Origin: Calditrichota bacterium
GTDB lineage: Bacteria > Calditrichota > Calditrichia > RBG-13-44-9 > J042
NCBI GenBank assembly: GCA_013150955.1
Contig: JAADJD010000038.1
Span: 1-64,000 of the forward strand
Length of the DNA: 64,000 bases
Direction of reading: 5' to 3'
Below, piece by piece: positions 6,236 to 43,408 of the stretch. The notes beneath the pieces are model-generated. The model saw nothing but the letters and a program-made list of their open reading frames with translations. It did no database searches and was not told the DNA's origin. Within the stretch, counting starts at the first letter, position 1. The number at the start of each line of letters is the position of its first letter. The position numbers were made by a program, and so were the translations under genes.

Positions 6236-9200
6236 TCACCTCAGTAACATCATCTTACGGGACAGGTGCCGATCCGCCACCTTCAGCCGGTAAATATACA
6301 CCCCGCTGGCCACCGGCACGCCCCGATCATCCCTGCCGTCCCACTGCACGCGATAGGTTCCGGCCATCTGGCGCCGATTCACCAGCTGCCGCACTCGTTC
6401 TCCCAGTATGTTGAACACCTCCAGCTGCACCCGTTTCCCCGTCAGTCGCCGGGGAATGGCATACGAAATGGTGGTCACCGGATTGAACGGATTGGGGAAA
6501 TTGGGCTCCAGGATCAGGCGATCGGGCAGGGTAGCAGCGTCTTCTGGAATGCGGGTGACGATGCCGAAATAATTCAACACCCGGCCCATCAATGCGGCGC
6601 GATCCCCCGGTTGCACGATGGTTTCGAAGGTAAATCCCAGATACACCAGCTGCGCCACCTGGCTGCTCTGGCCGTAGGTTCCGGTGAACTGAATTCCCGC
6701 GATGCGCAAATTGCCATACAACAGCGCGGTTTGACTGCCATTTTTGGGCTGGATATAATCCGGATAATCCTCGATGTACAAATTGGGGCCATTCACGGTG
6801 CCGTATTCAAAATCCAGACCTTCAAACACGGTGCCCTGTTCCCCCAGCACCCGATTGGATCCCGAAAGATCCCCCAGGTACCGCGCCCGCAGCAGGTACT
6901 CGTACCGTTCCTTTTCCACAGCGGTGGTGCTGGCAAAATCGTAACCAATCTCCGATCCCGAGATGAACAACTTTCCGCCATTTTCCAGATAATCCAGCAA
7001 CCGGAATTGATCCGCAGCGGCCAGCGATTCGTCGGAGCGGCTGTCATCCCCGCAGAAGTAAATCACCACGTCATACGCATTCAGATCGATTTCGCCGTTT
7101 TGAACCGCGGTTTCGGTGCAGGATTCAAATCCCACGCCGTTGGCGGCCAATGCCTCGCCGTAGCTGGCCACAAAGGGATGATAGGGCTTTTGCCAGCTGG
7201 CCTGGCGATCGAAATTATCCACGATTAAAATGCGGTCGCTGGAGGAAAAACCCACGCCGTAGGCATCGCTGGGGTCACTAACAAAAGGAATTTCAGTGCC
7301 ATCCTCCCCCACATAGGCGTTGGTATCCACGGCTACCAGTCGAAAATAAATGGTCTGTACCGTATCCGGCACCACCCAGCGGAACGTCTGGGTGGCAGCA
7401 TTCAGCACCTGTTCGTCGGCAATGGGCGGATCGCTCCAGGTCAACCCATCGGAACTGCGAAACAGTCGATACCCCGCAATATCGCCCTCCAGGGTGGGAT
7501 ACCAGGCAATCTCCACTTCCCGGGTTGCCGGGCTAATGCGTCTGACCCATTTCAGAATCGGGGCGCGTGGGGGATCCAGCCGATCCACCTTCTCCAGCCG
7601 CAGTGCATCCAGTACCAGTCGCAGATCCAGATCGCCGGTTCCGCTCAACTCGATGTAGCCGCCAGTCTGGGGATCGCCTGAAAAATAGACCGGCGTGGGA
7701 CTCCACCGTCCCCATTTATTGGAAAACACCCGGTTGTATTCCGAAAAGAGCGGCACGCTGCGTCCGCTGGCATTCACGAAGGTGACCCGGGCACTTTCGC
7801 CCAGATATTGCGAGCTGGTCGCCATGTACACCCAGTAATCGCCCGGTTCGCTCACCTGAGGGAACACCCGGGCGCGGTGGCTTCCATCCTGATCCAGCGC
7901 CACCAGACGAAACCCATCGGTCAGGCCTTCCAGTTGCACATCGTCCACATCCAGCTGCCAGTCCCCGGAAATGCTCAAATCGGCATTCCGCATGCTGGAG
8001 GCATTTTCCACTTCGGCGTAGAAGCTTTCCACCTCGATCCGGAATTGATAGCGATACTGCATGGTTGCCGGGGGATTTCCCAGATCCTGCGCCTGCACTT
8101 CCACAATCACATTTCGGGAATAAGGAAACGGTTCCGCTGGCTGGTAGGTGATGCGGTATTCACTACTGGTGCCGCTAATGGACGGCGATACCTCCTGCTG
8201 GTTCACCCGAACCACAATGCTGTTCACATCGACCCCTTCCTCATCGTCCCGAATGGAAAAGGAAATGGCGGTATTGGGGGGCACTTCCGTGGAAAATGGC
8301 TGTGGAAACGGAAAGGCCACATACGGGGCACCAAATCCCAGCGTTTTGCGAATGTTGTTTCGGATCACCGGTAGCCGGGCGTAAAGATTGTCTCCCGGGC
8401 AGGCCGTTGCCTTGTAATCCCGATGCCCGAATAGCGAATCGGGATTGATGGTGTAATGATCGCTCAGCCAGCTCCAGATTTCGACCAGCCGATCCAGCGC
8501 CCTTTCGGTGGGATATTCTCCCGCAATGTGAAAATTACCGAAATAGGCAATCCCGACGTTGCCCGTATTGTTACCGCCCACGTGGGTACCCCGGTATTCC
8601 ACCGGAACCCCTTCGTAGATGCGTCCCGAATCGTCGATGCAAAAATGATAACCAATGTCCTGCCAGCCGCGACCATTCTGATGAAAATCCTGGATGAATT
8701 GCATTTCCTGAATACCATCTTCCAGGGTATAGATGCGGCGACCGGCGGTGTGATGCTGGGTCATTCGGTAGGGATTATGCGGCACGTAATTCCCGACCGG
8801 GGGATTGGCGCCCCATTCTTCCCGGGTGATGATTGGCGGTTTGGGCACCGTGTCCTGGCGCATGGAGAAGGCTTTCTGCGTGGGGCGCGGTCTCGACCGT
8901 TCCGGTAACCGTCCCTCCTGCTTGCGCAACACTCCTTCGATGGCGTACACCTCGATCTGTACCGGCCACCGAACCCCGCGATTCACAAAGCGATACTGAA
9001 TGCGCCGGGTTTGTCCTTCCGGCAAGTCGTAACGCGCCCAGAACCGTCCGTTAGGAAACACGCGCAGGTATGCATTTACCCAGTCCGACCAGCGGTTGGT
9101 CTCCTGCTCGTAGCGCACCTGAAGCACCACATGCGTATCCGACAGCATGCCGTTAAACAACACCCGGTCAAAAGGCTCCCTGGCGGCTTCACTCTCCGGG

Positions 9201-9370
9201 GACAAATACAGCACGGAATCGCCCCGGTCAGCCACCGTTTGCTCGCTCAGTTCTACCTTTAGATGCAAATTTCCCTCAAAGCGGAGCAACTCCCCCACTT
9301 CCTGAGCCATTGCTGTTCCCGCCCATAGCAGAACGATCATCTGCACAAACCACAAAATCCGCCTGTTCAT
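6236..9370 (-). CDS. Secreted N-acetylmuramoyl-L-alanine amidase (PGRP/amidase_2) with multi-domain C-terminus and sorting domain
   Basis: Hydrolyses the bond between MurNAc and the stem peptide. Signal peptide 1-22 (ends AMAQ). Amidase/PGRP domain ~180-345 with all zinc-site residues: His206/207 in MTQHHTAG, Tyr241 in IGYHF, His316 and Cys324 in FGHRDYKATACPG. After it come an Ig-like region (~350-440), a golvesin/Xly carbohydrate-binding-like domain (~445-590, ending LVLDALRLEKV), an FN3 domain (~600-705), a class I glutamine-amidotransferase-like fold (~715-935; the elbow reads SGSEIG, so the usual Cys is absent), and a type IX-like sorting domain (EPNFPNPFNPVTTISYAIP to SRKMMLLR). The last three modules recur in the next two genes downstream on the same strand. 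Acts outside the cell or on its surface, on own or foreign murein. Confidence 0.93.
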   Translation of the reverse strand: MNRRILWFVQMIVLLWAGTAMAQEVGELLRFEGNLHLKVELSEQTVADRGDSVLYLSPESEAAREPFDRVLFNGMLSDTHVVLQVRYEQETNRWSDWVNAYLRVFPNGRFWARYDLPEGQTRRIQYRFVNRGVRWPVQIEVYAIEGVLRKQEGRLPERSRPRPTQKAFSMRQDTVPKPPIITREEWGANPPVGNYVPHNPYRMTQHHTAGRRIYTLEDGIQEMQFIQDFHQNGRGWQDIGYHFCIDDSGRIYEGVPVEYRGTHVGGNNTGNVGIAYFGNFHIAGEYPTERALDRLVEIWSWLSDHYTINPDSLFGHRDYKATACPGDNLYARLPVIRNNIRKTLGFGAPYVAFPFPQPFSTEVPPNTAISFSIRDDEEGVDVNSIVVRVNQQEVSPSISGTSSEYRITYQPAEPFPYSRNVIVEVQAQDLGNPPATMQYRYQFRIEVESFYAEVENASSMRNADLSISGDWQLDVDDVQLEGLTDGFRLVALDQDGSHRARVFPQVSEPGDYWVYMATSSQYLGESARVTFVNASGRSVPLFSEYNRVFSNKWGRWSPTPVYFSGDPQTGGYIELSGTGDLDLRLVLDALRLEKVDRLDPPRAPILKWVRRISPATREVEIAWYPTLEGDIAGYRLFRSSDGLTWSDPPIADEQVLNAATQTFRWVVPDTVQTIYFRLVAVDTNAYVGEDGTEIPFVSDPSDAYGVGFSSSDRILIVDNFDRQASWQKPYHPFVASYGEALAANGVGFESCTETAVQNGEIDLNAYDVVIYFCGDDSRSDESLAAADQFRLLDYLENGGKLFISGSEIGYDFASTTAVEKERYEYLLRARYLGDLSGSNRVLGEQGTVFEGLDFEYGTVNGPNLYIEDYPDYIQPKNGSQTALLYGNLRIAGIQFTGTYGQSSQVAQLVYLGFTFETIVQPGDRAALMGRVLNYFGIVTRIPEDAATLPDRLILEPNFPNPFNPVTTISYAIPRRLTGKRVQLEVFNILGERVRQLVNRRQMAGTYRVQWDGRDDRGVPVASGVYIYRLKVADRHLSRKMMLLR

Positions 9371-9391
9371 AGTTTTTCCCTTCCTGACAAC

Positions 9392-9521
9392 GTGATTCGT
9401 TTTAACTCAAAAAATATTTAAGCGCGAATAAACCCCGAAACCTATTTTCATTCAGATCTAATCCAAGATTAATTTTATTTGTGTTGATTCGTGTCATTCG
9501 TGGTTTAATGGATAACCTGGG
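9392..9521 (-). repeat. 165-bp repeat, copy B (left arm truncated)
   Basis: Contains the core GCGAATAAACC, TTTTCATTCAGATCTAATCC and the right arm GTGTCATTCGTGGTTTAATG. The edge ATAACCTGGG ends 1 bp before the stop codon of the GH18 gene (TTA at 9523-9525 on this strand). The left arm is degenerate. Sits between two co-directional hydrolase genes. Confidence 0.75.
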
Positions 9522-9522
9522 T

Positions 9523-12012
9523 TTAACGGAGCAAAATCATCTTCCGGCTGCGGGACTGATCTCCCACCTGCAGCCGATAAATATATGTGCCGCTGGGAAC
9601 CGGATTACCGTTGTGGTCGCGTCCATCCCAGACCACCCGGTGTTGCCCCGGTGCCAGGGGACGATCCACCAGCGTAATCACTTCGCGCCCCAACAGATCA
9701 AAAATTTGCAGCCGCACCGGTTGAACATCCCCGGCAGGTACGGTGAACGGAATGGTTGTTTCTGGATTAAACGGGTTGGGATAATTTGGCCCCAGCCGCA
9801 ACTGCTGGCTAACCCGCGGCGTTTCCTCTGCCGATATACGGGTGGGCAAATCGAAAAACCGCAGCACCCGCGCCATCAAACTGTCACGAGCGCTTTCGGG
9901 ATAGAACGCCTCGAATCCCACGGCCAGATAAACCAGCTTGCCCGTCTGGGTGCCGCTTCCAAAGGTGCCCTCGTACTGAATGCCGGCACCCCCATAGGTT
10001 GCGGGATCAAATCCCGGATACACCAGTGCCATTACCGCGCCCTCCCGGGGACGAATGCCATCGGGATAATCCACATTGTACGTCCCATGGGAACCATCAT
10101 CGAATGCGATATTGGACAGGCCAGCGAAAATTCCCTGGGCCGTCCCCGATACCCGGTAATTTCCGGTTTTATCCCGCACATATTCGGCCTTCAAGTAGTC
10201 CCTGTAAAAATTTTGATCCGCCTGCGAGCCCTTCGCCACAAGGTCGTAACCAATTTCCGAACCGGACACGAACAAATAGCCCCCGTTTTCCAGATAGGCC
10301 GCCACTTTGCTCTGTTCCGCCGCACTGAAGCTTTCGTCCGCGGTACCTTCCTCCCCGGATATCCAGATGACGGCTCGATAATCCGACAGGTTCAAAAATC
10401 CTTCTTCAATCACCTCGTTGGCGCAGGCGTCGAAGGCGTAACCCATCCGGGCAACCGAGGGCGCAAATCGCTTGATGTAATCGAACGTATTGCGGGTACC
10501 TGAGGTGCGGTCGAATCCGTGCACGATCAAAATGGGGGCAAAACCGCTGGTGGGGCGAACAGCCAGCAGTTCGGTCACGCCGCTTTCCCCGTTGGCATTC
10601 ACCGCCGACACCTTGAAGTAATACACACTGTCCGGAGACAAGCCACTCAGATCGATGACATTGTTGGGATAATCCACCGATTGAAAATTCCGGGCATCGG
10701 TGCTGGTATACAGGCGGTAAGCTGTGGCACCCGCCGAGGGTGTGACCAGCACCCGCACCTGGCCATTTCCCAGATTCACCACCCGGAAATTGGTGGGTTT
10801 TAGCGGTGGCGCGGTGGAACCAAAGGCATTGGAAATAGCCGCCTGCAGCTCGGTGCGCTGGCCATCGTACGTAAGTGCCCAGACGGCAATGCCCTTTAAA
10901 TCCCGTTCGTTCACCAGATCAAACTTCAGGGACAGGCTCAGGCTGTCGTCATACCATCCCTGATGCCACTGGCTTCCGCTCTGGTATTTATACCAGGGCG
11001 TCTGAGAATGCGTATCCCACAGCCGCCCGTAGTTCTGCGCATTGGAATAGGCAACGGCGTAAATCATGGCTGTGCCCACATCGGTGGTGGGAGAATTGAG
11101 CTCTCCATCCGCCGTCGGCCATTCGATCCCGTAAAAAGGAACGCTCAGAATTAATTTAGAGTTGTTGTTGAAGGTCTTGCGGAGGTAATCGTCCACCGTC
11201 CAGGTCACGTTGTATGTGCCCCACACATCCCCGCTGGTCAGCGGCGCCACCGGGCCGGCATTGGGAGCGCTTTTCCAGTGGTAATCATACCCCTGCATAA
11301 TCAGCCCATCGGTAACGTTGGCCAGGGCGTAACAATCAAACGCATTTCGCCAGTCCACCGCGGGGGTAAAAATGGTGACAAATGATCCCGGTATCTCTTC
11401 GTGAAACGCACGGGTCAAATCGGTCATAAACTGGGTGAGATTGTCCCGCTGGTCTCCCGGCACACCTTCAAAGTCGATGGTCACCCCATCGGCACCGGCC
11501 TGTTTTACCTGGTTCAGCAGATTGGTGATCAGATTCTGGCGGCTTTCTGCACGGCTCAGCAGGGTACGCAATTTGTCGGTATCGAAGAGGATGGCCGTCA
11601 ACACCACCCGCACACCATTCTGATGGGCCAGTTGCACCAATCCCGAAGCGGGCCAGTGGTGAAGATCCACCAGATTGCCCATTTCGTCCACTTCGGCACC
11701 AAAGTAGGCAATGGTGGTTAGCAGGTTGTAATTGATCGTTTCGTACCCATCGTAACGCCAGTAGGGTAGATAACCAAACACTTCGCGGGACAGCTGCACC
11801 TCTCGGGGCTGTAGCGGTGCCACCGAAACCGATCGATCCGGCTGCACCGCTGCATAGGCAGCCACTTTGCGGTAGTATTCCCACTCCAGCTGGTGAATGC
11901 TCTTGCGCTCCCGAAAGGCTTCTTCAAAGGGTAATTGAATTTTCGATTGAGCCAGCAACGTCTGGCCTGCCAGGAGCAGCATCAAGCCAATCCAGTATAC
12001 CTTGCGTGTCAT
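9523..12012 (-). CDS. Secreted glycoside hydrolase family 18 protein with glutamine-amidotransferase-like and sorting domains
   Basis: Signal peptide ~1-22 (LLLAGQTLLAQ). GH18 barrel ~75-395: FGYLPYWRYDGY opens it, the catalytic motif is DGVTIDFEG with Asp180 and acid Glu182, and MQGYDYHW and LSVPFYGIEW follow. The third acidic position of DxxDxDxE is Thr178; SleL/YaaH-type N-acetylglucosaminidases also vary there (Asn), which points to murein rather than chitin as substrate (inference). FN3 ~400-490, GATase-like domain ~495-720 with SGSEIGYDL, sorting domain ~745-829 (GPNYPNPFNPETTIPFTVP ... SRKMILLR). With the neighbouring amidase and M23 peptidase it would cover glycan, amide and peptide bonds. 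Chitinase activity remains possible. Confidence 0.88.
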   Translation of the reverse strand: MTRKVYWIGLMLLLAGQTLLAQSKIQLPFEEAFRERKSIHQLEWEYYRKVAAYAAVQPDRSVSVAPLQPREVQLSREVFGYLPYWRYDGYETINYNLLTTIAYFGAEVDEMGNLVDLHHWPASGLVQLAHQNGVRVVLTAILFDTDKLRTLLSRAESRQNLITNLLNQVKQAGADGVTIDFEGVPGDQRDNLTQFMTDLTRAFHEEIPGSFVTIFTPAVDWRNAFDCYALANVTDGLIMQGYDYHWKSAPNAGPVAPLTSGDVWGTYNVTWTVDDYLRKTFNNNSKLILSVPFYGIEWPTADGELNSPTTDVGTAMIYAVAYSNAQNYGRLWDTHSQTPWYKYQSGSQWHQGWYDDSLSLSLKFDLVNERDLKGIAVWALTYDGQRTELQAAISNAFGSTAPPLKPTNFRVVNLGNGQVRVLVTPSAGATAYRLYTSTDARNFQSVDYPNNVIDLSGLSPDSVYYFKVSAVNANGESGVTELLAVRPTSGFAPILIVHGFDRTSGTRNTFDYIKRFAPSVARMGYAFDACANEVIEEGFLNLSDYRAVIWISGEEGTADESFSAAEQSKVAAYLENGGYLFVSGSEIGYDLVAKGSQADQNFYRDYLKAEYVRDKTGNYRVSGTAQGIFAGLSNIAFDDGSHGTYNVDYPDGIRPREGAVMALVYPGFDPATYGGAGIQYEGTFGSGTQTGKLVYLAVGFEAFYPESARDSLMARVLRFFDLPTRISAEETPRVSQQLRLGPNYPNPFNPETTIPFTVPAGDVQPVRLQIFDLLGREVITLVDRPLAPGQHRVVWDGRDHNGNPVPSGTYIYRLQVGDQSRSRKMILLR

Positions 12013-12108
12013 ACATCCCTCACTCTAAAATGTTTTTTATTTTCGAATGTTTGGGTGCACGGTCTCCATTCCTTCGGAATTTATCATCACCGGGTTTCCA
12101 TCCTCCCA

Positions 12109-14355
12109 TCATCGGACCAGCACCATTTTTTGCACTTTCTGGAATTCCGTTTCCGGGGAGCGCGCCTTCAGGCGCAGCAGGTAAATTCCCGCCGGAAGCT
12201 GCCGTCCCCGATCGTCCCTGGCATCCCACACTACCCGGTATCGCCCGGCGGGTTGACGGGCGTGGACAAGGGTGCGTACTTTCTGTCCCAGGGGAGAGTA
12301 CACCTCCAGCACCACCTCCGCCATCACCGGCAATTGATAGGCAATGGTGGTCCGGGGATTGAAGGGATTGGGGAAATTGGGCTGCAGAGCAAATGCCACG
12401 GGGGCGGTTTCCGATGCCGGTTCCGGCGTACCCACCAGAAAATCGAAAAAGGCATCCAGCACGTCCCGAATGATCTGCGACCGTGCCTGCTCGTCTCCCA
12501 CCGTTTCCAGTGGAAAGGCCAGGTAAATCACGCTGCCCACCGAATCGCTCTGACCAAATCGTCCCCGATAAAACACCCCGGCGGCCTCGCCTCCGGCATA
12601 GCGCAAACACACCACGGTGGAATCGCCCACCGGTTGAATCACGTCTGTCGAATCCACCGCGTAAGCCCGATTACCAAAGGAAAAGGACAAATCACGGAAC
12701 ACCCGGAAATCCGTTCCGTTCACCTGGCGCTCATCCGGGCCCCGATACAGAAAATCGGCCTTTAAATACTGGTGCAGAAATTCGGCATCAGCGGTGGTGG
12801 CACTATCCGAGCCGTCCGTATCCAGATCCCAGGCAATATGCGCCCCGTTAATGAACAGATGACCGCCGGCTTCCAGATAGTCTCGCAACAGGGCCTGCTC
12901 GGCGGCACTCAGGGTCTCCAGCCGATCGGCCTCATCGCCCACAAACCAGAACACCGCATCGTAATCGGTGAGTGACACGGTTCCATCCACCACACTTTCG
13001 TTGGGAGCAGAATCGAAATGAAATCCCCAGGAGACGATCTCCCGGCCGTAATCGTAAACAAAGCTGTGCCATGCCTGCTGCCAGGCGCCATCGGTGCGGT
13101 CAAACCCATCCACCACCAGAATCCGTTGCCCCCACGTCGCGCTTCCATTGCTGGCACCCAGAACGTCGGACGGCTCGCTTTCGTTCTTCCAGGGCGTGCT
13201 GTCCACCGCGGTAATGCGAAAATAAATGTCCCGATTCAGCGTGATCTGCAGGCTGGTGTCGGTGACCGCTGCCGGAAGATCCGTTTCGTTCCGATACAAC
13301 GTCCAGTTCTGATTATCAAAGCTATAGTAAATCCGGTAGCCCAGCAGATCGGCATCGGGGCTTTGCGTCCACCCGAAACGCAATTCGGATTCCCTGCCCA
13401 CAAAATACCGAAAAACCGGCGATTGCGGGGGCGTGGTATCCGCCTCCCGAACGGTTACCCGCACGTAAACGGTGTCTCCATTGAACCGGGTATCCTGGGT
13501 GTACACCATCACCACGTAATCGCCCGGCGGCAACGAAGTGGTGTCCCAGTAGCCATCCCGACTCACTTCGTTGGTCACCTGGTAGACATGACTGGTGGTA
13601 CTGGAAAGAGGCCGGAAATACACGATGTTTACGTATGCGTTGTCGGGCTTGGTATCGAATTGAAACCGCCAGTCCCCGCCCGGCGGCTGATAAATCACCG
13701 TAGAGGTGTCCGCACTCAGAATGCGGTACCCAATCCGGTACGTTCCGTTGTTCAATCGGGATTCCCGGCTCGTCGGGGGGCCATTTTGCTCGTCCACCTT
13801 GACCACAATGTCCACCCGGCCACTCAACCCGTTTGCCGGCAATTCATTGCTGGTATTGTTTTCGTAAAACCGAACAAAGCGAATGATGGGCGGCCAGGGA
13901 TCCTCCAGCGGTGTCAATCCACTGTTCATCAACATGGAATTGCGCTCGGAACCGACGTAACCGTTAGTAAAATGCACGTGCCCGGCTCCGGATTTAATGT
14001 AACCCAGCACCGTTTGCGAGGCGTACACCCTGTCCCCTACCTGTAAATTGGGATTGGGATTGATGTGCACGTAGGCCTTGTCATCCACCCGAACATAAGG
14101 CGTCCCGCTGGTGGCCATGGCAATGATGGTACCGTCCTTCACCGGGTAAACCGGCGAACCGTCCGCCTTGGGAATGTCGGTGCCGTTGTGGAAATGGCCG
14201 TTCGGGCTGGTACTGCGATACTCGCAAAAATTCCCCGTAATTTCGTGACTTTGATCGAAAGGTTTTACGGGCCAGGGGAACTGCTCCTGCGCCCGAGCAG
14301 AAACACCGATCAATAGCCAGAGGAAAAAACCGAGTGCAAATGCCTGTGTTTTCAT
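12109..14355 (-). CDS. Secreted M23 (LytM-type) murein endopeptidase with GATase-like and sorting domains
   Basis: Signal peptide 1-22 (SARAQ). M23 domain ~28-155, close to the N-terminus, with the complete catalytic set: zinc ligands His56 and Asp60 (HFHNGTDI) and His128 in GHVHF, plus His126 of the same motif and His97 in YVHINP. LytM-family enzymes cut peptide cross-links. Then Ig/FN3-like domains (~160-400), a GATase-like domain (~410-640, INGAHIAWDL at the elbow) and a sorting domain (~665-748, QPNFPNPFNPRTTIAYQLP to VQKMVLVR). Its ATG overlaps the stop of the upstream propeller gene (14352-14355), so the two are coupled. Third of three murein hydrolases with one shared C-terminal architecture. 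Confidence 0.92.
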   Translation of the reverse strand: MKTQAFALGFFLWLLIGVSARAQEQFPWPVKPFDQSHEITGNFCEYRSTSPNGHFHNGTDIPKADGSPVYPVKDGTIIAMATSGTPYVRVDDKAYVHINPNPNLQVGDRVYASQTVLGYIKSGAGHVHFTNGYVGSERNSMLMNSGLTPLEDPWPPIIRFVRFYENNTSNELPANGLSGRVDIVVKVDEQNGPPTSRESRLNNGTYRIGYRILSADTSTVIYQPPGGDWRFQFDTKPDNAYVNIVYFRPLSSTTSHVYQVTNEVSRDGYWDTTSLPPGDYVVMVYTQDTRFNGDTVYVRVTVREADTTPPQSPVFRYFVGRESELRFGWTQSPDADLLGYRIYYSFDNQNWTLYRNETDLPAAVTDTSLQITLNRDIYFRITAVDSTPWKNESEPSDVLGASNGSATWGQRILVVDGFDRTDGAWQQAWHSFVYDYGREIVSWGFHFDSAPNESVVDGTVSLTDYDAVFWFVGDEADRLETLSAAEQALLRDYLEAGGHLFINGAHIAWDLDTDGSDSATTADAEFLHQYLKADFLYRGPDERQVNGTDFRVFRDLSFSFGNRAYAVDSTDVIQPVGDSTVVCLRYAGGEAAGVFYRGRFGQSDSVGSVIYLAFPLETVGDEQARSQIIRDVLDAFFDFLVGTPEPASETAPVAFALQPNFPNPFNPRTTIAYQLPVMAEVVLEVYSPLGQKVRTLVHARQPAGRYRVVWDARDDRGRQLPAGIYLLRLKARSPETEFQKVQKMVLVR

Positions 14356-15563
14356 CTTACCCTGAACGTTTGTTTTTCCTGTTGAAATCCAATAAACAAT
14401 TCCTGACCGGTGGCAGAAAGCCGTAACGCCGGCGTTAGCAAACGCTGCCCGTTAAAATCCAGTTCCTGTGCAACCATTCCCTGTTCATCCAGCACCAGCA
14501 GTCGGGGATTCACGAATTGAAACGTATTTTCCTCAAATTCGCTGCGGGCGATCAACAAAGCGGCCTTTTTTCCCATTTCGGACAGGTCGATTGCCGCAAT
14601 CGGCGCCGATCCCTCCGGCAGGTCGTACGTCCACACCGACTGCCCGCTGGAAAGATCCAGCAGCCCGGCGCGCTGATTTTCTGCAAGCAGCACATATCGC
14701 GCATCGGGGGAGAATCGGCCAAATTTCATCAGCAAGTCCGATTCCGCCACCTCGTTGCCGGAATCGTCGTACACCACCGTCCGGCGATGAAAAACGCGAT
14801 CAGGGCCGATGCGGTAGATTCCCACCGCAGCGTAACGTCCATTCGGGGAAACGACCAGCCGGGTGAACCCGTGTGCCGGCAACGCCTGCCGCCAGTTCTC
14901 CTTTCCATCCATGGACAGAAGAATCAGGAATGGATTGGCACCTTTTTCGGTCATGCCATGCCGGGTAATGGCCACGAACATGCGCCCGTCATCGGGTACG
15001 GGCTGAACCGCTACCTTTCGCTCCAGATCGTAGGATGCATCGGAGAATAAAGGGGCCGCAAAAACCCGACGGCCTGCCGGATTGTACACTTCCAGCTCCG
15101 CAGTGGAGCCGCGCACCACGATGAGACTTCCCTGATCTGAAACCGCCACCTGCGGGAACCCCTCGTCATACGCGCGATGGAAGGGAACCACAAATTGCGG
15201 CTCCTCCCCCAGGCGGTGCAGTTGTATCCGGCCTTCCTGCTGCTTACCCGGTGCCACCCGTTCGTCCAGCACCCGAACCACCGCGTAAAATCGCCCTTCA
15301 GGGGAGAACTGGACATCCACGGTGCGTTCTGGCAGGGGTAACGTTTCCCTCTCCCCCGTTGCCCGGATCCAGATCAATTCACCATCGGTCAGGGCCACAT
15401 CGCCCGTCTTCAGAAACCACCATTGCTTTACCGGCGATTTGAAAGCGGTTTTGCTGACCAGCCGAAACGGGCCACTCCCCCTGGCCCGTCCGCCCTGTTG
15501 CCACACGAACAAAAACACCAGGGCACCAAGCAATAGCACCAGTCCATATCGAAGCATTTTCAT
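14352..15563 (-). CDS. Membrane-anchored beta-propeller protein of unknown function
   Basis: One N-terminal hydrophobic segment (~5-22, LRYGLVLLLGALVFLFVW) that could be a signal anchor. There is no lipobox and no sorting domain. The rest looks like a seven-bladed WD40/TolB-type propeller: 'VDVQFSPEGRFYAVVRV', 'TRLVVSPNGRYAAVGIY', 'GRFSPDARYVLLAENQ', 'ALRLSATGQELFIGFQ'. Stop overlaps the start of the M23 gene, so it is the first gene of that transcript and is made together with a murein hydrolase. A scaffold or regulatory role for the hydrolase is possible but not shown. GGGTGGG precedes its ATG. Confidence 0.7.
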   Translation of the reverse strand: MKMLRYGLVLLLGALVFLFVWQQGGRARGSGPFRLVSKTAFKSPVKQWWFLKTGDVALTDGELIWIRATGERETLPLPERTVDVQFSPEGRFYAVVRVLDERVAPGKQQEGRIQLHRLGEEPQFVVPFHRAYDEGFPQVAVSDQGSLIVVRGSTAELEVYNPAGRRVFAAPLFSDASYDLERKVAVQPVPDDGRMFVAITRHGMTEKGANPFLILLSMDGKENWRQALPAHGFTRLVVSPNGRYAAVGIYRIGPDRVFHRRTVVYDDSGNEVAESDLLMKFGRFSPDARYVLLAENQRAGLLDLSSGQSVWTYDLPEGSAPIAAIDLSEMGKKAALLIARSEFEENTFQFVNPRLLVLDEQGMVAQELDFNGQRLLTPALRLSATGQELFIGFQQEKQTFRVR

Positions 15564-32583: not shown

Positions 32584-33729
32584 TTAAAATGTACCTTCCA
32601 CCCCCAGGCCCGGTCGATCGGGAAAAATGAGTTTCCCCTGTTCCACTTTCACCCCGGAAAAGGGATCGTTGCTGATCAGCAGATTCCCATCCAGATCCAG
32701 CCAATCGGCGTAGGGCGCCAGTTGTGCAGCCGCCGAGATGGCCACGGAACTTTCAATCATACACCCCAGCATTATTTTCAACCCCAGCGCCTTTGCCAGC
32801 TGAATCATCCGCCAGGCTTCCTGTAATCCACCGGACTTCATCAGCTTAATGTTAATGCCATCATAAGCGCCCACCAGACGGGGAATATCGGCCGCGGTTT
32901 TCACCGCTTCGTCGGCCACGATAGGCATATCCACCCGTTCGCGCAACCAGGCAATATCGTCAATCTGTTCCGCGGGCATGGGCTGTTCAATAAACTCCAC
33001 CCCCTGATCTTTCAACCACTGGATCTTCTCCAGCGCCTCTTCCCTGGATTTCCATCCCTCATTGGCATCCACACGGATCGGCTTATCGGTGACGCTGCGC
33101 ACCGCCTGAATGATTTCTTCATCCCGATCCGTTCCAACCTTAATCTTTAAAATGGGAAACGCTTCGGCCTCTTTTACTTTTTTCCGAATCATTTCCGGGG
33201 TGTCGATACCAATTGAAAAAGAAGTTACCGGGGCCCGTTCCGGATTTAATCCCCACAGCCTGTACAGGGGAACTCCCAATGCCTTGCCCACCCAGTCCAT
33301 CAAAGCAATGTCCAATGCGGCGCGGGCACAATTCTGATCCACAATCACACCATCCAGCGCTTCCTTGATCTCCACATAATGGAAAAAGTCGCGGTTATTC
33401 AAAAGATGGCTGGCCTCCTGAATCCGTTTCACCGTTTTCTCTGCACTTTCCCCATAGCGAACGTTGGGAGCCGCTTCCCCGTAGCCCACAATCCCGTCTT
33501 TTTCCAGTCGCACAAAAACGTTGTTCTTAAAATCGCTGGAATTGCGGGAAATCGTCCAGGTATGCTTTAAAATCAGTTTTTTTACTTTAACCTCAATCAT
33601 CGCTTCTCCTGTCATCATTTTTGGGGTTTCGGGATGACTCCAGGCCTGGGTCATCAATGCTGGAAAAAAAGGAAGTCCCATGAGGGTTTTCCCACTCAAT
33701 GAAAGAAATTCTTTACGATTCAATTTCAT
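32584..33729 (-). CDS. Dipeptide (L-Ala-D/L-Glu) epimerase with N-terminal export-like segment
   Basis: Enolase-superfamily enzyme that would convert L-Ala-D-Glu from murein to L-Ala-L-Glu. Catalytic lysines Lys195/Lys197 (LKIKVG) and Lys298 (LMKSGG). Metal ligands Asp221 (VDANEGW), Glu248 (IEQP), Asp273 (ADEA). I place the start at 33729, because the longer frame (to 33753) reads through the AGGAGGAGG ribosome site. The N-terminus (LNRKEFLSLSGKTLMGLPFF) resembles a Tat-type leader with RK instead of RR, so this copy may be exported; the paralogue at 62.3 kb has none. Last gene of the eleven-gene minus-strand run, 31 bp after the NlpC/P60 gene. Confidence 0.88.
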   Translation of the reverse strand: MKLNRKEFLSLSGKTLMGLPFFPALMTQAWSHPETPKMMTGEAMIEVKVKKLILKHTWTISRNSSDFKNNVFVRLEKDGIVGYGEAAPNVRYGESAEKTVKRIQEASHLLNNRDFFHYVEIKEALDGVIVDQNCARAALDIALMDWVGKALGVPLYRLWGLNPERAPVTSFSIGIDTPEMIRKKVKEAEAFPILKIKVGTDRDEEIIQAVRSVTDKPIRVDANEGWKSREEALEKIQWLKDQGVEFIEQPMPAEQIDDIAWLRERVDMPIVADEAVKTAADIPRLVGAYDGINIKLMKSGGLQEAWRMIQLAKALGLKIMLGCMIESSVAISAAAQLAPYADWLDLDGNLLISNDPFSGVKVEQGKLIFPDRPGLGVEGTF

Positions 33730-33760
33730 CGCCTGCCTCCTCCTAAGACTCAACCTGAAT

Positions 33761-34888
33761 TTACTCCGGTAAAACGCGTTTTATCTTTTTCAAGGTGTTG
33801 AACCGATAAGCGCTAAAGATTTTTGAATGGGGATTTAGACTGTTCAAATGAACATCTCCGCTCTGGTGAATGTATTCCGTACCCCCCAGGCTGATGGCAA
33901 CATGGGTAATGCGATCGTCGGTTCCGAAAAATAATAAATCGCCTGGCAGCAGATTGGAAAAATCCTTTTCGGGTTTGACTTCCCATCCCACCATGGCCTG
34001 CTGACGGGCGTCCCGCGGAAGGGGAATGCCATTAGCCATGAACACGGTGCGGGTAAAGCCAGAACAGTCACTACCCACACTGGAATTTCCACCCCACAGG
34101 TAGGGCACCCCCATCATTCGATAGGCCGTCTTAACAATGGCTTCGCGAAGCTCATCCCCAATGGGATAATGATTCACGTTTTCGGTAATATCGGTTTTGC
34201 GGATAAACCCTTCTCGACCATCAGGCAGGCGGACGTTCACCCAGCTCCGCTGATTCCCGATTTTTTGCAGAAACACGTTCATGACCGCATTGGCCACCGG
34301 TGTGGATTGTTCCGATGGCTGCTGAAAAATTTGTGTAAACAGCGCGGTAACCCGTACCAGCTGACCATTCCGCCAGTCCTGAACTCCCTGACGATCGGTG
34401 CGCACAAACGATTCCTTCCGCATCCATCCCAGGTATCCATAACCGGTTTGCACCAGATACCAGCCATCGCGATTTTTTAATAACCGCAAGATGCTTCCCA
34501 TGATGGCCTGATCCACCAGCTGTGCCGAATGCCGCGGTTCCTCTCGCAAATTGGCAACGGCCACCCGAACGATGGCGTAATTGCTATCCCCCAGCTGGGG
34601 ATGCGGTAACAGCACCACCTCCTTGCGCACATCCGCGTCCGAAAGCAACGAATCGACCATCTGCTCCACCGCCTGGCGCGCCTCGGGAACGGTCGTTTCC
34701 CCGCGCAACACCCAGATCCCATTCTCTTTTTCCAGAGAAAAATCGAACACATTGAGTGTCAGATCGGGGGCATATTTTTGCTGCAACGGTTTCAGGCGCT
34801 GCTGGAAGATTTCTTCGGTTTGATTGGTGGGTGCGGCACAAGCCAGAAACGCCAGCAGCATCCAGAATGCCAGATATGATCGCTTCAT
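33761..34888 (-). CDS. NlpC/P60 lipoprotein, gamma-D-glutamyl-mDAP endopeptidase type
   Basis: Lipoprotein signal: lipobox LACAA with Cys17. Residues ~35-100 form a small domain of unknown type (GETTVPEARQAVEQMVDSLL). Two SH3b-like domains follow (~105-165 with VRVAVANLREEP; ~170-240 with DGREGFIRK). NlpC/P60 domain ~245-375: Cys in GSDCSGFTRTVF, His in ITHVAISLGGTEYIHQSG; YLWGGNSS and LLPGDLLFF are also typical. Should cut stem peptides in the periplasm, giving L-Ala-D-Glu for the epimerase encoded next. Similar domain order to the cytoplasmic paralogue at 20.4 kb, so two compartments may each have one. Confidence 0.9.
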   Translation of the reverse strand: MKRSYLAFWMLLAFLACAAPTNQTEEIFQQRLKPLQQKYAPDLTLNVFDFSLEKENGIWVLRGETTVPEARQAVEQMVDSLLSDADVRKEVVLLPHPQLGDSNYAIVRVAVANLREEPRHSAQLVDQAIMGSILRLLKNRDGWYLVQTGYGYLGWMRKESFVRTDRQGVQDWRNGQLVRVTALFTQIFQQPSEQSTPVANAVMNVFLQKIGNQRSWVNVRLPDGREGFIRKTDITENVNHYPIGDELREAIVKTAYRMMGVPYLWGGNSSVGSDCSGFTRTVFMANGIPLPRDARQQAMVGWEVKPEKDFSNLLPGDLLFFGTDDRITHVAISLGGTEYIHQSGDVHLNSLNPHSKIFSAYRFNTLKKIKRVLPE

Positions 34889-35001
34889 CCTGTTTTTCCT
34901 CGATTTATTCTGTCGAACTCATTTCTCTAAAAGCGGGTATTTTGAATGATTAACAGCGATTTCCTGTTGTTTTGCCGAAGCCCTACCTCCAACAAACAGA
35001 T

Positions 35002-36177
35002 CTAAAGCATATCGGAAAAAACCACCCCTGCGGGATCCCGCAAATTATACTGAGAAGCCATAACCGCGGCATATGCCCCGGCTGAACGGATTGCCAGCAA
35101 ATCGCCCCGACGCACCTCGGCCAGTGACACGTCTTTTCCCAAAAAATCGGACGATTCACAAACCGGGCCCACCACATCGTAGGTGAAGGATTTTCTTCCG
35201 GCTTCCGCGGTTAAATTATCGATCTGATGATACGCACCGTACAACGCGGGTCGAATCAATTCGGTCATTCCAGCATCTACAATGGCATAGCGGCGCTCCA
35301 CTCCCTGTTTCACATACAGCACACGGGTAATTAAAGCTCCACACTGCCCCACCACCGAGCGACCCAGTTCAAAATGCAAGGTCTGATCGGCGCGACGTTC
35401 CAGGTAGCGATCGAAGATCTGAAAGTAACTGGCAAAGTCGGGTATCGGATGCGCATCCGGATCATCATAATCGATTCCCAGGCCACCACCCAGGTTCAAA
35501 TGCAGCACCGGCAATCCCTGCTGCCGAAACCATCGCTGGATATCATTGACCCGCAGGCACAATCGTTTAAAAACGTTTAGATCGGTAATTTGCGAACCGA
35601 TATGAAAATGGATGCCCAGAAACCGCAGGTGGGGCGTTTGTTGTAACAGTTCCACCGCTGCGGGCACATCCTTCCAGGGAATACCGAATTTGTCTTCCTC
35701 CCTTCCGGTGGTAATGTATTCATGAGTACCGGCTTCCACATTGGGATTAATGCGCAGGGCCACCGACGCGATGCGATCTTTCAATCGGGCCAGCTCTGCA
35801 ATGACCTGCAATTCCTGAAGCGACTCCACATTCAGGCAAAAAATATCCGCTTCCAGGGCGTGCTCAATCTCCAGATCGGTTTTGCCCACTCCTGCAAACA
35901 CAATAGCTTCGGGCGGGAAACCAACCTCCAGGGCCCGCTGGATTTCGTTGCCGCTCACGCAGTCCGCACCCAGCCCGTATTCCCGAATAATCGACAACAA
36001 ATGGGGTTCGGCATTGGCCTTCAGGGCGTAGTGCACGTTTACATCATATTGCTCCGCGGCCTGGCAAAGAGTTTCCAGCGTTTCCCGCAAAAGCCCCACG
36101 TCGTAATAGTAAAAAGGCGTTCGGAACCGGGACAATTTCTGAACGATTTCCGGAGTAAACATCGATTTCTTCTTCAT
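35002..36177 (-). CDS. lysA: Diaminopimelate decarboxylase
   Basis: PLP fold III enzyme: meso-diaminopimelate to L-lysine plus CO2, cytoplasm. The PLP lysine is Lys53 (HYALKANAEP); HFHIGSQI, LNLGGGLGIDY and CESSDFLGKD (active-site Cys) are all present. 391 residues from ATG 36177, typical length. The longer frame to 36213 would read through the GGAGG/AGGGG site and overlap dacB-like, so I reject it. Within this cluster it most likely consumes mDAP released from murein peptides, besides its biosynthetic role. 11 bp after the PBP4-type gene. Confidence 0.94.
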   Translation of the reverse strand: MKKKSMFTPEIVQKLSRFRTPFYYYDVGLLRETLETLCQAAEQYDVNVHYALKANAEPHLLSIIREYGLGADCVSGNEIQRALEVGFPPEAIVFAGVGKTDLEIEHALEADIFCLNVESLQELQVIAELARLKDRIASVALRINPNVEAGTHEYITTGREEDKFGIPWKDVPAAVELLQQTPHLRFLGIHFHIGSQITDLNVFKRLCLRVNDIQRWFRQQGLPVLHLNLGGGLGIDYDDPDAHPIPDFASYFQIFDRYLERRADQTLHFELGRSVVGQCGALITRVLYVKQGVERRYAIVDAGMTELIRPALYGAYHQIDNLTAEAGRKSFTYDVVGPVCESSDFLGKDVSLAEVRRGDLLAIRSAGAYAAVMASQYNLRDPAGVVFSDML

Positions 36178-36188
36178 GGATCCCCTGC

Positions 36189-37790
36189 CTACCTCCGTTG
36201 ACCTGATAACCACCGGCCTCCCTCCGTCGTCCCACGATGCAGTTGAGATTGATGATCGGTGTACTGCACCCGCCAGGGATGTTTCCGCGAAAATGCACTG
36301 ATGGCACTGCCAATCCGATCCTGCACTGCCCGCACCCTGGCGGCCGATCCCACAAAATGTTCCATGATAATGGAAAAGGCAACCGGTTCTCCATCTGCCG
36401 TGGTGGTGTAGCCTGCCAGCGCACTAACCCCACTGAGGGTTCCCGTTTTCGCTCGCAAAATTCCCTGGGCGGGTGTCCCCCGCATGCGATCGCTCAGGGT
36501 ACCATCCACACCGGCTATGGGCAGCGAAGTCTGAAATTCCGCCTGAAATCGAAAGTCGCGATACATGTCCTGCAGCAGGGCAATCATCAAATCCGGCGTG
36601 ATTAAATTGTAGCGGGATACGCCCGAACCATCCACAATCTGGTAGGTTGCACTGTCCACCCCCAGCTGGTTCAGGTATTCCCGGATAATGGCCACCCCGT
36701 GCGCTGCCGTTCCCGGTTCTCCCTTCACTTCAGCAGCCAGGGTCTTCAAGATCATTTCCGCGGAGAGGTTATCGCTAATCTTGTTGGTATTGTAAATCAC
36801 CAGCGTCAGAGGATCGGAAAAATGGGTCACCAGCGGCACCGCATTTTCTGGCGCCACTCCTCGCAAGACCTGTCCCCGAAACGCCACACTATCCTGAAGT
36901 AGCAATTCTTTAAACAACGTTCCCACATACAGGGGCGCGTTGACCACATCGATCACAAATTTCTGAATGGCCGCGCCTACAGGAAGCGTCCCCTCTACCA
37001 CAATGGTGTTCTCCGGGGTTTTCCACTTTCGCTCTACCGTCAAGGTGGCATGTGCAGAAGTGTCTTCCACAGCCACCGTCTGTCCACGATTATCAATCGC
37101 TACGTAAGCGGTTGGGGGCTCTACCTCTACCTGGAGCGGTGATCCGGGGATCGATCCCGGTTTGACATAAACGGTCACACAGTTGTCATTCACAGACAAT
37201 GCGCTGATGGGTGCAAAGTACCAGGAAGACACATCATCCCACATCCAGCCTTTTCCCCAGTACAGATCGTCGAAAAATGAGGCATCGCAAATCAGGTTGC
37301 CATCGATGCGGCGGATTCCCCGGCGTTTCAATTCCCGAATGATGTCCCGCAAATCCTCCGTGGTTAGATCCGGGTTGCCGTACCCTTTCAGGTAAAGATT
37401 TCCTTTCACGATGGAATCCACCACGCTGCCCGAATCGGCCAGCAAAACGGTACGGAATCGGTAATTGGGGCCCAGGTATTTCAGGGCAGCAGCCGTGGTT
37501 AACAGCTTCATATTGGAAGCCGGATGAAACAATTTTTGGCTATTCCGCTGGTACAGCACTTCTCCGGTTTCCAGAGAAACGATTTTAATTCCCGTGCGGG
37601 TCTGCTGCAGCACCGAATCCTGTAATATCCGATCCAGCTGCCATCGGAATTGCTGTAAGAGGGTTGCCGGTTTGTGTGTCCCGATCAGCGATGACTGAAC
37701 CGCACAGGATGTCCACCAGAACGGCATGGTGACTAACGCCATCCACACCATGGTTTTCCGTACCCACCATCCAACACGCTCTCCCTTCAT
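36189..37790 (-). CDS. dacB: D-alanyl-D-alanine carboxypeptidase/endopeptidase, PBP4 (S13) family lipoprotein
   Basis: Removes terminal D-Ala or cuts cross-links in murein. Signal peptide with a possible lipobox (WWTSC, Cys29). Active-site serine motif SNMK (Ser92, Lys95), second motif SDNLSAEM (SxN), third motif AKTGTLSG (KTG). Large inserted domain between motifs 1 and 2, as in S13 enzymes; 533 residues fits. The start codon overlaps the stop of the preceding amidase-like gene (ATGA, 37787-37790), so the two are translationally coupled. Free D-Ala could be taken up by the AGCS symporter encoded two genes upstream. Confidence 0.92.
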   Translation of the reverse strand: MKGERVGWWVRKTMVWMALVTMPFWWTSCAVQSSLIGTHKPATLLQQFRWQLDRILQDSVLQQTRTGIKIVSLETGEVLYQRNSQKLFHPASNMKLLTTAAALKYLGPNYRFRTVLLADSGSVVDSIVKGNLYLKGYGNPDLTTEDLRDIIRELKRRGIRRIDGNLICDASFFDDLYWGKGWMWDDVSSWYFAPISALSVNDNCVTVYVKPGSIPGSPLQVEVEPPTAYVAIDNRGQTVAVEDTSAHATLTVERKWKTPENTIVVEGTLPVGAAIQKFVIDVVNAPLYVGTLFKELLLQDSVAFRGQVLRGVAPENAVPLVTHFSDPLTLVIYNTNKISDNLSAEMILKTLAAEVKGEPGTAAHGVAIIREYLNQLGVDSATYQIVDGSGVSRYNLITPDLMIALLQDMYRDFRFQAEFQTSLPIAGVDGTLSDRMRGTPAQGILRAKTGTLSGVSALAGYTTTADGEPVAFSIIMEHFVGSAARVRAVQDRIGSAISAFSRKHPWRVQYTDHQSQLHRGTTEGGRWLSGQRR

Positions 37791-38995
37791 ACCACAGGTA
37801 CCTCTATTTTGCCCTTCCTGACTTGCTTCTTACAAATTAACCAAAATCCATCCCACATGGGCGAAAAAATATGCCTGATGACCAATTTTTCTCCACCCTT
37901 CGCTACCGCAATAAAACCCGTATCATCGGCGATTTCCTGGATACCGGAACCCCTTTTTTCAATCGTTTTCTGATTTTCTGGGCAGAAAACGTTCTCCCGA
38001 TCAAAAGGTAACTGCGAAGCGCAACCATCCATTCCCAAACCGTTCCTATCCAGGAGAACGTCCCCGAACGTTTCCCTTCCCGGAACGATTGGACTGGACG
38101 ATTTTGCTGTCTCCACTTCCTGCACCAGGGCATCCAGCAGTTGCGCCCACAGGTGGAGATCAAAATTCTGGGGATCATCGTGGGCACCGGGAATACCGGC
38201 ATCGATGGCGGCATGGTAGCCCGGTATAAGCCAGCTCCCTTTGCGAATGCTGGCGGCCAGGTACACCAGGGCCAATCGCTTGAGCTGAGGAACGGTAAAC
38301 CCCGGTTCCGGGGCCAGGGCATCGTTACCGGGAGGGCCAGCGGGATCGCTGCGTCGGGGCTGGATTAGTTCCACATGGAGACACAGTCCCTTTCCCCTCC
38401 TTCCCAGACGCTGCAATTCGAATTTCGTCGCGCGCCAGGGAGTGGCAAAATCCACCGCGGTTAGTGATTGACCCAGCCGATTGATAAACACGTGAGCACG
38501 GGATCGATTGCCCTGATTCCAGCGCTCCAGATCGTTGTGCTCCCATTCCTCATCGTTGATCTGTGCCGGGAATTCCTGCGCTCCGTAATTTGGGGTGCTG
38601 GTGTCGTGGATGATGAAATACCAGGCTGTGGGTGCTGCGGGATGATTGTCATCTGCCCGGCAAAGGGGAGCATCCAGAGATCCCCCCAGTTCGGCTTCGG
38701 AGATTCCTCGTGCGTTTAAATACCGACGAAATTGTTCGACCGAAAGGGTAACCCGGCGCCCGATGCGGGATTCCAGCGGTTCTGGCAATTTCTGCAACGG
38801 GGCCCCCAGCCTCCCGTACCGCTGCACCGGCTGCAACAAACACCGCGCCTGTTCCAGCGGCGATCCCTCAAATTGCAATGCAGACTCCGAAAACGGGCAA
38901 GGTCCCGCATCCAGTCCCATTAGACCGGAAATCCCCAACCCAAAGAGCACCAGCCACGAGCCCCAGCCCATACTTGTTCTCAACGCCCGCGTCAT
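37787..38995 (-). CDS. Probable exported N-acetylmuramoyl-L-alanine amidase-like (amidase_2 fold) protein
   Basis: N-terminal hydrophobic segment (~10-28). Residues ~140-300 look like a distant amidase_2 domain: first His in WYFIIHDTSTPNYG, an AHVFINRLGQ strand, LCLHVELIQP, and a second His in IPGYHAAIDAGIPGAHDDP. A Cys ligand as in T7 lysozyme is not evident. ATGA overlaps at both ends couple it to the AGCS gene before it and the PBP4-type gene after it. The context supports a murein or muropeptide substrate. Activity is less certain than for the amidase at 6.2 kb; a binding-only role is possible. Confidence 0.65.
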   Translation of the reverse strand: MTRALRTSMGWGSWLVLFGLGISGLMGLDAGPCPFSESALQFEGSPLEQARCLLQPVQRYGRLGAPLQKLPEPLESRIGRRVTLSVEQFRRYLNARGISEAELGGSLDAPLCRADDNHPAAPTAWYFIIHDTSTPNYGAQEFPAQINDEEWEHNDLERWNQGNRSRAHVFINRLGQSLTAVDFATPWRATKFELQRLGRRGKGLCLHVELIQPRRSDPAGPPGNDALAPEPGFTVPQLKRLALVYLAASIRKGSWLIPGYHAAIDAGIPGAHDDPQNFDLHLWAQLLDALVQEVETAKSSSPIVPGRETFGDVLLDRNGLGMDGCASQLPFDRENVFCPENQKTIEKRGSGIQEIADDTGFIAVAKGGEKLVIRHIFSPMWDGFWLICKKQVRKGKIEVPVV

Positions 38996-40362
38996 TTTCT
39001 CCCCTTCTCCAGCTGCTGGAAATAAATTCGGGAAGCCTTCATGACCTTCGGTGCCAGCAATAACGCGGAGGTCATGGTGGGAATCGCCATCAGGGCGTAC
39101 ATGCCGTCGATGACATTGACCACCACGTCCAGGCTGGCCACCGAAGCCACCACGATGAGAATCACATAAAAATAATTGTACAGATGTTTGCGTTCGGCAC
39201 CTGCCAGAAAGGCCCAGGACTTGGATCCGTAATATGAATAACTGAACATGGTGCTGAGGCTGAAGAAAAGCACGCAGGTGACCAGCACAAAGGTACCCAC
39301 GCCAGGAATGGCCTGCTCAAAGGCAGCGGCAGTCAGGGTTACCCCACTGGCAGCGGAGGTTTTCCACACCCCGGTAACCAGAATCATCAATGCGGTGGTG
39401 GTGCACACAATAATAGTGTCGATAAACGGGCCAATCATGGCCACCAAACCTTCGCGAATGGGTTCATCGGTTTTGGCTGCACCGTGGGCCATGGCTTCGG
39501 TACCAATCCCGGCTTCGTTGGAAAAAGCCGCCCGCCGAATTCCTGTGATCATTACCGTCCAGACGGCTCCCCCGGCAACGGCCTGACCGGTAAAGGCATC
39601 CTGCACAATTAATGAAAAATAAGCCGGTATCTGCGAAAAGTGGGTGAGTAGCGTCCAGATGGCCGCAGCGAAGTACAGCACTACCATCGACGGCACCAGC
39701 CGCGCTGCCACGGTGCCAATCCGCCGAATGCCGCCAAAAATAACACCAGATACCAGTGCCGCAATGATCAAACCGCTAATCAGGTTAAAAAGGAAAAGCG
39801 AATCGCCCGTCCATCCACGGGGCAGGAAAACAATCTCCCGCAGCGCCTGCACCAGCTGGTTGGCCTGAAAGGCGGGCAAACACCCGATCAACCCCGCCGT
39901 GGAAAACAGCACCGCCAGGGGCTTCCACCGGGGGCCCAATCCCTCCACAATCACGTACATGGGCCCACCCTGTAGATGCCCCAGACTATCCCGGCCGCGA
40001 TACATCACCGCCAGAGAGCAGGTAAAAAACTTGGTGGCCATCCCCACAATGGCACTCACCCACATCCAGAACACCGCACCGGGGCCACCCACCGCAATGG
40101 CGATGGCCACCCCGGAGATATTGCCCATGCCCACGGTACCGGCCAGTGCACTGGATAGCGCCTGAAAATGGTTGATGTCCCCCGGGGCAGATGGATCATC
40201 ATACTTTCCCCGTAAAATTTCGATGGCGTGCCGAAAGTAGCGAAAGGGGATGAGCCGCGAATAAATGAGGAAGAACAATCCCCCTCCGGTTAACAGAACC
40301 AGCAGCCAGGGTCCCCAGGCATACGCCGCAAAGGTGGCAACAATGTCTTCAAACCGTTTCAT
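38992..40362 (-). CDS. Alanine/glycine:cation symporter (AGCS family)
   Basis: 456 residues with ~10-11 membrane segments. AGCS signature ALSSALAGTVGMGNISGVAIAI near residues 66-90, GGPMYVIVEGLG at ~131, and SNEAGIGTEAMAHGAAKT at ~290. Takes up L- or D-alanine (or glycine) with Na+ or H+. In this run it would import alanine freed from stem peptides. Its stop overlaps the start of the amidase-like gene. GGTAGGTAG precedes its ATG. Confidence 0.93.
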   Translation of the reverse strand: MKRFEDIVATFAAYAWGPWLLVLLTGGGLFFLIYSRLIPFRYFRHAIEILRGKYDDPSAPGDINHFQALSSALAGTVGMGNISGVAIAIAVGGPGAVFWMWVSAIVGMATKFFTCSLAVMYRGRDSLGHLQGGPMYVIVEGLGPRWKPLAVLFSTAGLIGCLPAFQANQLVQALREIVFLPRGWTGDSLFLFNLISGLIIAALVSGVIFGGIRRIGTVAARLVPSMVVLYFAAAIWTLLTHFSQIPAYFSLIVQDAFTGQAVAGGAVWTVMITGIRRAAFSNEAGIGTEAMAHGAAKTDEPIREGLVAMIGPFIDTIIVCTTTALMILVTGVWKTSAASGVTLTAAAFEQAIPGVGTFVLVTCVLFFSLSTMFSYSYYGSKSWAFLAGAERKHLYNYFYVILIVVASVASLDVVVNVIDGMYALMAIPTMTSALLLAPKVMKASRIYFQQLEKGRK

Positions 40363-40475
40363 CTACCTACCACGACACAGCCCCTGCCGGGGCCCCACGA
40401 TATGGATTAACCGCCTACCACAATGCGATGCGTCAACGTTTTTTCACCAATGTAAGCTTCCAAAACCTGCCGGCA

Positions 40476-43310: not shown

Positions 43311-43408
43311 GATTCACCCATCGCATAATTGTCGATCCAACAGGATAAAGCTTTCAACCACGGTTTTCTTTTCAAAACCACAGTTTATTCCCCCCTCAAT
43401 CGCCATCG

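Follow-up and report, generated by a model that had tools for sequence, protein, structure and literature searches.

In a stretch of 64,000 nucleotides from a Calditrichota bacterium (assembly GCA_013150955.1, contig JAADJD010000038.1, positions 1 to 64,000; hereafter the window), three adjacent genes encode an exported amidase, an exported glycosidase of family GH18 and an exported endopeptidase of family M23, which share a C-terminal module of about 230 residues. The module represents a previously undescribed family of domains, in which the fold is known and the specialisation towards murein is unexpected, and its close clade is almost exclusive to the catalytic domains of cell-wall hydrolases. 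Our analysis gives a probability of about one half to the reading that it is a non-catalytic accessory domain binding murein, which aims exported murein hydrolases at external murein or holds them there. The module is probably the gripping or aiming part of these enzymes in bacteria that eat the walls of other bacteria, and its ligand is most likely murein glycan or glycopeptide.

The three genes lie in the same direction on the minus strand, separated by intergenic gaps of 96 and 152 bases, and each product consists of a signal peptide, a catalytic domain, an FN3-like domain, the module, and a type A sorting tail of the type IX secretion system (T9SS). The N-acetylmuramoyl-L-alanine amidase (6236..9370; 1044 aa) contains an Amidase_2 domain (8390..8761; Pfam E 3.6e-19), a second beta domain (446-600), an FN3-like domain (7256..7570), the module (6563..7231; E 1.1e-40 against the GH18 module, profile 282.9 bits), and the tail (6236..6505). 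The GH18 protein (9523..12012; 829 aa) has its catalytic domain at 10864..11778 (Pfam E 5.3e-34), its FN3-like domain at 10537..10818, the module at 9844..10539, and the tail at 9523..9792. In the M23 endopeptidase (12109..14355; 748 aa), the corresponding parts are located at 13966..14193, 13120..13431, 12442..13122 (module, E 7.1e-34), and 12109..12381. The active-site motifs are intact in all three: QHH at 205 and GHRDY..ACPGD at 315 (zinc ligands) in the amidase, whose closest solved structures are peptidoglycan recognition proteins; DGVTIDFE at 175 in the GH18 protein; and HNGTD at 56 and HVH at 126 in the M23 protein, although its catalytic domain scores below the Pfam cut-off (E 9.3e-5; 23.0 bits, cut-off 28.7; PDB 9gy1, E 6.5e-5). 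The FN3 stretches are homologous to one another (pairwise BLASTP E 3e-8 for the amidase and M23 regions, and 2e-5 and 0.006 for the other pairs), and the Pfam fn3 model scores that of the GH18 protein alone, just below its cut-off (24.4 versus 25 bits). All three tails pass the cut-off of 23 bits for TIGR04183 (amidase, 25.5; GH18, 37.3; M23, 25.6). Thus, the coordinates, Pfam and TIGR04183 bear out an earlier note, made from the letters of this DNA, which had described three co-directional hydrolases ending in the same order of FN3 domain, module and sorting domain. In a genus-mate (G002), the three genes recur in unchanged order, at 76-79% identity.

The modules are homologous. A search of the whole genome returned E values of 1e-40 and 7e-34, and the C-terminal tails of the amidase and the M23 protein are 39% identical across 387 residues, so the non-homology that the earlier note had named as a refutation was not found. 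The genome has one more copy, its fourth (G000:C16:6657-7313, locus L004), which sits on an S8 subtilase with a T9SS tail and belongs to a sister group outside the cell-wall enzymes.

The partners of the module were surveyed in 40 Calditrichota genomes and at least 80 loci elsewhere. The cross-phylum scan was seeded with the window's modules, and the profile for the whole-phylum survey was built from its matches; counts outside the phylum are counts among the matches listed, not proportions. The module matched at E 1e-10 in 39 of the 40 genomes, giving 134 copies in the phylum. Cell-wall-hydrolase types account for 84 of these (M23, 23; GH18, 21; Amidase_3, 17; NlpC/P60-like, 12; Amidase_2, 6; GHL10, 5), 38 are on other proteins (Omp28, 11; LVIVD-type, 8; a family of 1030 aa, 7; M10, 4; S8, 3; and a few more), and 12 are unclassified or incomplete. 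Cell-wall enzymes therefore carry 84 of the 122 classified copies and 52 of the 53 that score at least 200 bits, contrary to the possibility that the module is mostly found off cell-wall proteins. The same partners occur among the listed matches from Neomarinimicrobiota, WOR-3, KSB1, Ignavibacteria and Bacteroidota, and M14 and LysM appear as single cases each among the murein-type partners. Among the NlpC/P60-like partners, 11 of 13 match PF00877 below its cut-off (best E 0.006), and the motifs DCSG and GHV are invariant; a PDB sequence search with their profile gave no match, and their fold search was weak, with top matches including CHAP endolysins at E 0.04 or worse. Two further proteins have no Pfam-recognised catalytic domain: one carries two modules (L059:4591-6969), and the other LysM plus two modules (L039:3221-8368).

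In a maximum-likelihood tree of 99 rows, the rows on proteins other than cell-wall enzymes form one group with branch support of 100/99; the only clear exception is L168, an alpha/beta-hydrolase-like protein. This tree requires two switches between cell-wall and non-cell-wall partners, compared with at least 24 in 500 shuffles, and 12 changes of catalytic type within the cell-wall rows. A quick tree of 196 rows gave three changes of partner state, compared with at least 35 in shuffles, and 13 changes of catalytic type. Seeding from the window's modules favours close relatives and affects the counts, but it would not alone yield a supported split. Because the changes of partner state are few and those of catalytic type number about a dozen, the module has moved among unrelated catalytic folds and kept to murein hydrolases.

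An AlphaFold2 model of the module of the GH18 protein, built from 67 homologues, has a pLDDT of 91.5 and a pTM of 0.92. Its best Foldseek match in the PDB is the GIFT domain of IFT52 (5fms, E 4e-7). Class I amidotransferases of the PabA/TrpG type match at E about 5e-6 with a probability of 1.00, the ThuA-like and class I amidotransferase matches together span E 5e-6 to 1e-4, and chain 8aa2_G of the levan utilisome matches at E 3.1e-4, with a TM of 0.49 by query length; GH164 is also among the matches. The modelled fold is thus of the class I amidotransferase/ThuA/GIFT type. No Pfam or NCBIfam model scores above its cut-off on the module. DUF4960 (PF16324) matches 24 of the 67 module sequences at E 0.01 or below (best 1.6e-6), the scores displayed for full proteins all lying under its 29.2-bit cut-off, and the top PDB sequence match of the module profile is the DUF4960 chain of the utilisome structures, a weak one (E 0.12). 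The GIFT model of Pfam (PF23355) has no match among the 67 sequences and scores weakly (18.2 bits, cut-off 27.2) only for remote relatives that sit on Omp28/LVIVD proteins.

What became of the old active site can be followed in the numbering of the GH18 protein. The cysteine of an amidotransferase would sit at the elbow that follows strand 88-94 of the model, and the elbow motifs quoted in the earlier note (SGSEIGYDF, SGSEIGYDL and INGAHIAWDL) are present as given. At this nucleophile position (586), cysteine is found in 0 of 196 homologues; glutamate occupies it in 99, and most of the others have aspartate, asparagine or tyrosine. Within the window, the residue is glutamate in the amidase and GH18 modules and histidine in the M23 module. 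Glu 701, in the place of the triad glutamate, is conserved in 187 of 191 sequences, whereas the position two residues earlier, where the histidine would be, is mostly proline or glycine. Asp-Glu-Ser at 554-556 is among the most conserved positions of the module and is placed, like the others, in the old active site from secondary structure and sequence. PabA, TrpG and their ThuA-like relatives, then, share the fold and the elbow position with the module, and class I amidotransferases differ from it in their Cys-His-Glu triad. A working amidotransferase is ruled out, since none of the 196 homologues has the cysteine, and the earlier description of an amidotransferase-like fold that lacks its nucleophile holds in both parts. 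If the module binds a ligand, the site would probably be the old amidotransferase pocket, now lined by the glutamate, Asp-Glu-Ser and the invariant glutamate in place of cysteine and histidine.

Murein, which the earlier note had put forward beside a common scaffold as what the module may dock to, is suggested as its ligand by this partner specificity together with two precedents. The closest functional precedent is BT1761, the surface glycan-binding protein of the Bacteroides levan utilisome, whose C-terminal ThuA-like domain binds levan through the tryptophans W297 and W359 and which works beside a surface glycosidase and SusCD (PMC7618045). Like the module as we picture it, this DUF4960 domain (PDB 8a9y, 8aa0 and 8aa2) is a non-enzyme with a glutamine amidotransferase/ThuA-like fold, placed C-terminally after Ig-like domains, and it acts on the outer surface beside a glycan-cutting enzyme and SusCD. 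BT1761 is, however, a separate lipoprotein with levan as its ligand, whereas the module is fused to a hydrolase, and their sequence similarity lies below the Pfam cut-off. The second precedent is the GIFT domain (GldG, IFT52 and Wbp1/OST48), the best fold match and also non-catalytic, which has been proposed to bind sugar (PMC7226087) but which sits in intraflagellar transport, gliding and oligosaccharyltransferase complexes and not on murein hydrolases. In being an accessory domain common to amidases, endopeptidases and glycosidases, the module resembles LysM, SPOR, SH3b and PG_binding_1. The folds of these domains are unrelated to its own; it exceeds LysM about fivefold in size, and its murein binding is a prediction.

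The three hydrolases would leave the cell through the T9SS, the genes of which are present in the genome: SprA (SprA_N, 130 bits), PorU (849.8 bits), and 13 matches to the PorV family above the cut-off, with one PorV-family protein in the window (21555-22571). The motor GldM/PorM (PF12081) was not found in this genome, for which a divergent motor or an assembly gap is possible. Among the members re-examined in the phylum, all complete M23, GH18, NlpC-like, Amidase_2 and GHL10 proteins have the T9SS tail, whereas none of the 17 Amidase_3-Golvesin members has it; those with a complete N-terminus mostly have a lipobox-type signal. Since the module is present in these Amidase_3 lipoproteins although the tail is missing, it does not serve in export, and such a role is ruled out as well by the many tailed proteins that have no module. 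The shared set of FN3 domain, module and tail described in the earlier note therefore stands for the three proteins themselves, but the module and the sorting tail are separate parts.

Once outside, the amidase, endopeptidase and glycosidase would cleave foreign or dead sacculi, and the module would hold the enzymes to the polymer. The probable supply partner of these enzymes is a murein (muropeptide) catabolic locus at 32584..59492, which includes genes for an Ala-Glu epimerase-type enolase, an SH3-NlpC/P60 protein, LysA (diaminopimelate decarboxylase), PBP4, AgcS (an alanine symporter), MurQ, two SSS sodium symporters, a GH3 and beta-lactamase-type fusion, a BadF-type kinase, AraC, SusC, SusD, DUF5009, and NamZ (an exo-muramidase). 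The fusion (45234-48188; 984 aa) joins a NagZ-like, beta-N-acetylhexosaminidase-like GH3 domain to a beta-lactamase/PBP4B-type domain. Fragments would enter through the SusCD pair and the symporters and would be broken down by NamZ, GH3, the BadF-type kinase, MurQ, NlpC/P60, the epimerase and LysA. The gene order is largely conserved in three other genomes (G002, G003 and G034; loci compared L258-L262), and in G031, which belongs to the same order but to another family, this locus contains an Amidase_3 gene with the module, a single gene lying between it and NamZ. NamZ is present in 36 and MurQ in 28 of the 40 genomes of the phylum. Recycling via anhydro-N-acetylmuramic acid by AnmK is not supported, as AnmK was not found in the genome. 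The clustering of NamZ, a sugar-kinase-type gene and MurQ recalls the N-acetylmuramic acid salvage of Tannerella forsythia (MurT, MurK, MurQ and NamZ), from which the window differs by adding SusCD, the GH3 fusion, LysA, the epimerase, and, at a distance, the module-bearing hydrolases. Searches of the open-licence literature found, among the titles and abstracts listed, no description of T9SS-exported murein hydrolases in Calditrichota or of the use of murein or necromass by this phylum.

Several observations weigh against the view that the module binds murein for exported hydrolases. The top PDB relatives of the GH18 protein (4wiw, YdhD, a chitinase, SleL and YaaH) are spore-murein glycosidases mixed with chitinases; judged from its sequence, the enzyme may be a chitinase, and its murein activity is predicted. 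The similarity of the module to BT1761 is weak, and some 18-45 kb separate the catabolic locus from the genes of the three hydrolases. One protein inside the GH18/GHL10 part of the tree (L168, 1122-4190) has an alpha/beta-hydrolase-like domain with a GHSGGG motif and, on sequence, is possibly an esterase. Finally, the dedication to cell walls proposed in the earlier note applies to the close clade and fails for the distant sister group, which sits on S8 subtilases, Omp28 and M10-like secreted proteins and has one copy in this genome. As these secreted proteins are unrelated, the ancestral role of the fold need not be murein binding.

Among the alternatives, the likeliest by a small margin, although we consider it unlikely, is that the module is a protein-protein docking part, through which the hydrolases would be joined in a complex, either at the cell surface or on a scaffold that they share, in the manner of cellulosome dockerins or of the IFT52 GIFT domain in intraflagellar transport trains. 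The best fold match does belong to a protein complex, and the module is common to three adjacent co-directional genes. Next to them, a gene for a 403-aa protein with a weak PQQ/BamB propeller signal (14352..15563, minus strand) overlaps the start of the M23 gene by 4 bases, and its homologue adjoins the M23-module gene in seven related genomes. However, this propeller-like neighbour was seen beside M23-module genes only, no candidate scaffold common to all the phyla was found, and single enzymes, lipoproteins, and proteins without a recognised catalytic domain carry the module too. In three related genomes, a class A beta-lactamase-type gene adjoins the amidase-module gene (L249:10266-11537, L250:9177-10433 and L251:9630-10880).

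Next in order, and also improbable, is that the module spaces or stabilises large secreted proteins in a generic way, having been retained through shared ancestry and without substrate specificity. This would suit the wider superfamily, which sits on many unrelated secreted proteins (S8, Omp28, M10, M6 and beta-lactamase), and the neighbouring FN3 domains are ordinary linkers. On the contrary, it fits the partner specificity poorly, leaving unexplained that catalytic domains were exchanged about a dozen times within the clade without leaving murein hydrolases, and about 48 stretches of the genome match the tail region compared with only four full modules.

We give a little less credence again to the idea of a new type of catalytic domain, in which a rebuilt pocket, with a glutamate at the nucleophile site and the invariant second glutamate, would act as a murein hydrolase beside its partner. 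The old active-site positions are indeed among the most conserved of the module, and glutamate is found at 586 in every GH18, NlpC-like, Amidase_2 and GHL10 copy. In the M23 and Amidase_3 copies, however, this residue may be Glu, His, Asp, Lys, Arg, Gly or Tyr, a tolerance too great for a catalytic residue, and the fold neighbours BT1761 and IFT52 are non-enzymes. Least credible is that the proteins act on the producer's own murein in division or growth, with the module targeting its own wall. Many bacteria do grow and divide with the help of amidase, M23 and NlpC enzymes, but the cargo of the T9SS ends up beyond the outer membrane and so apart from that murein, and the catabolic locus, with its SusCD, symporters, NamZ and LysA, points to the use of external murein.

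Two further genes of the window should be mentioned. One, on the plus strand (20441-21289), encodes a second SH3-NlpC/P60 protein, which is YkfC-like, and lies between the three hydrolase genes and the catabolic locus; the other encodes, inside that locus (37787-38995), a 402-aa protein of unassigned family with no Pfam or NCBIfam match.

We tentatively propose, at somewhat less than even odds, that the amidotransferase fold has given rise to a new class of murein-recognition domain (or to a carboxylate-based murein-cleaving enzyme), which has been handed on as a cassette between six or more unrelated folds of murein hydrolases and which forms the shared outer part of a murein-utilisation system in several phyla around Calditrichota and Bacteroidota. 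Dead bacteria leave a large pool of carbon and nitrogen in their murein, and little is known about its extracellular opening by uncultured phyla. With a domain as the mark of exported murein hydrolases, such systems could be detected in metagenomes by sequence only. If murein binding is true, the module would also provide a murein-binding part unlike LysM or SPOR that could be used as a probe, and its pairing with a locus containing NamZ, GH3, MurQ, LysA and SusCD makes the hypothesis that these bacteria use murein as food directly testable.

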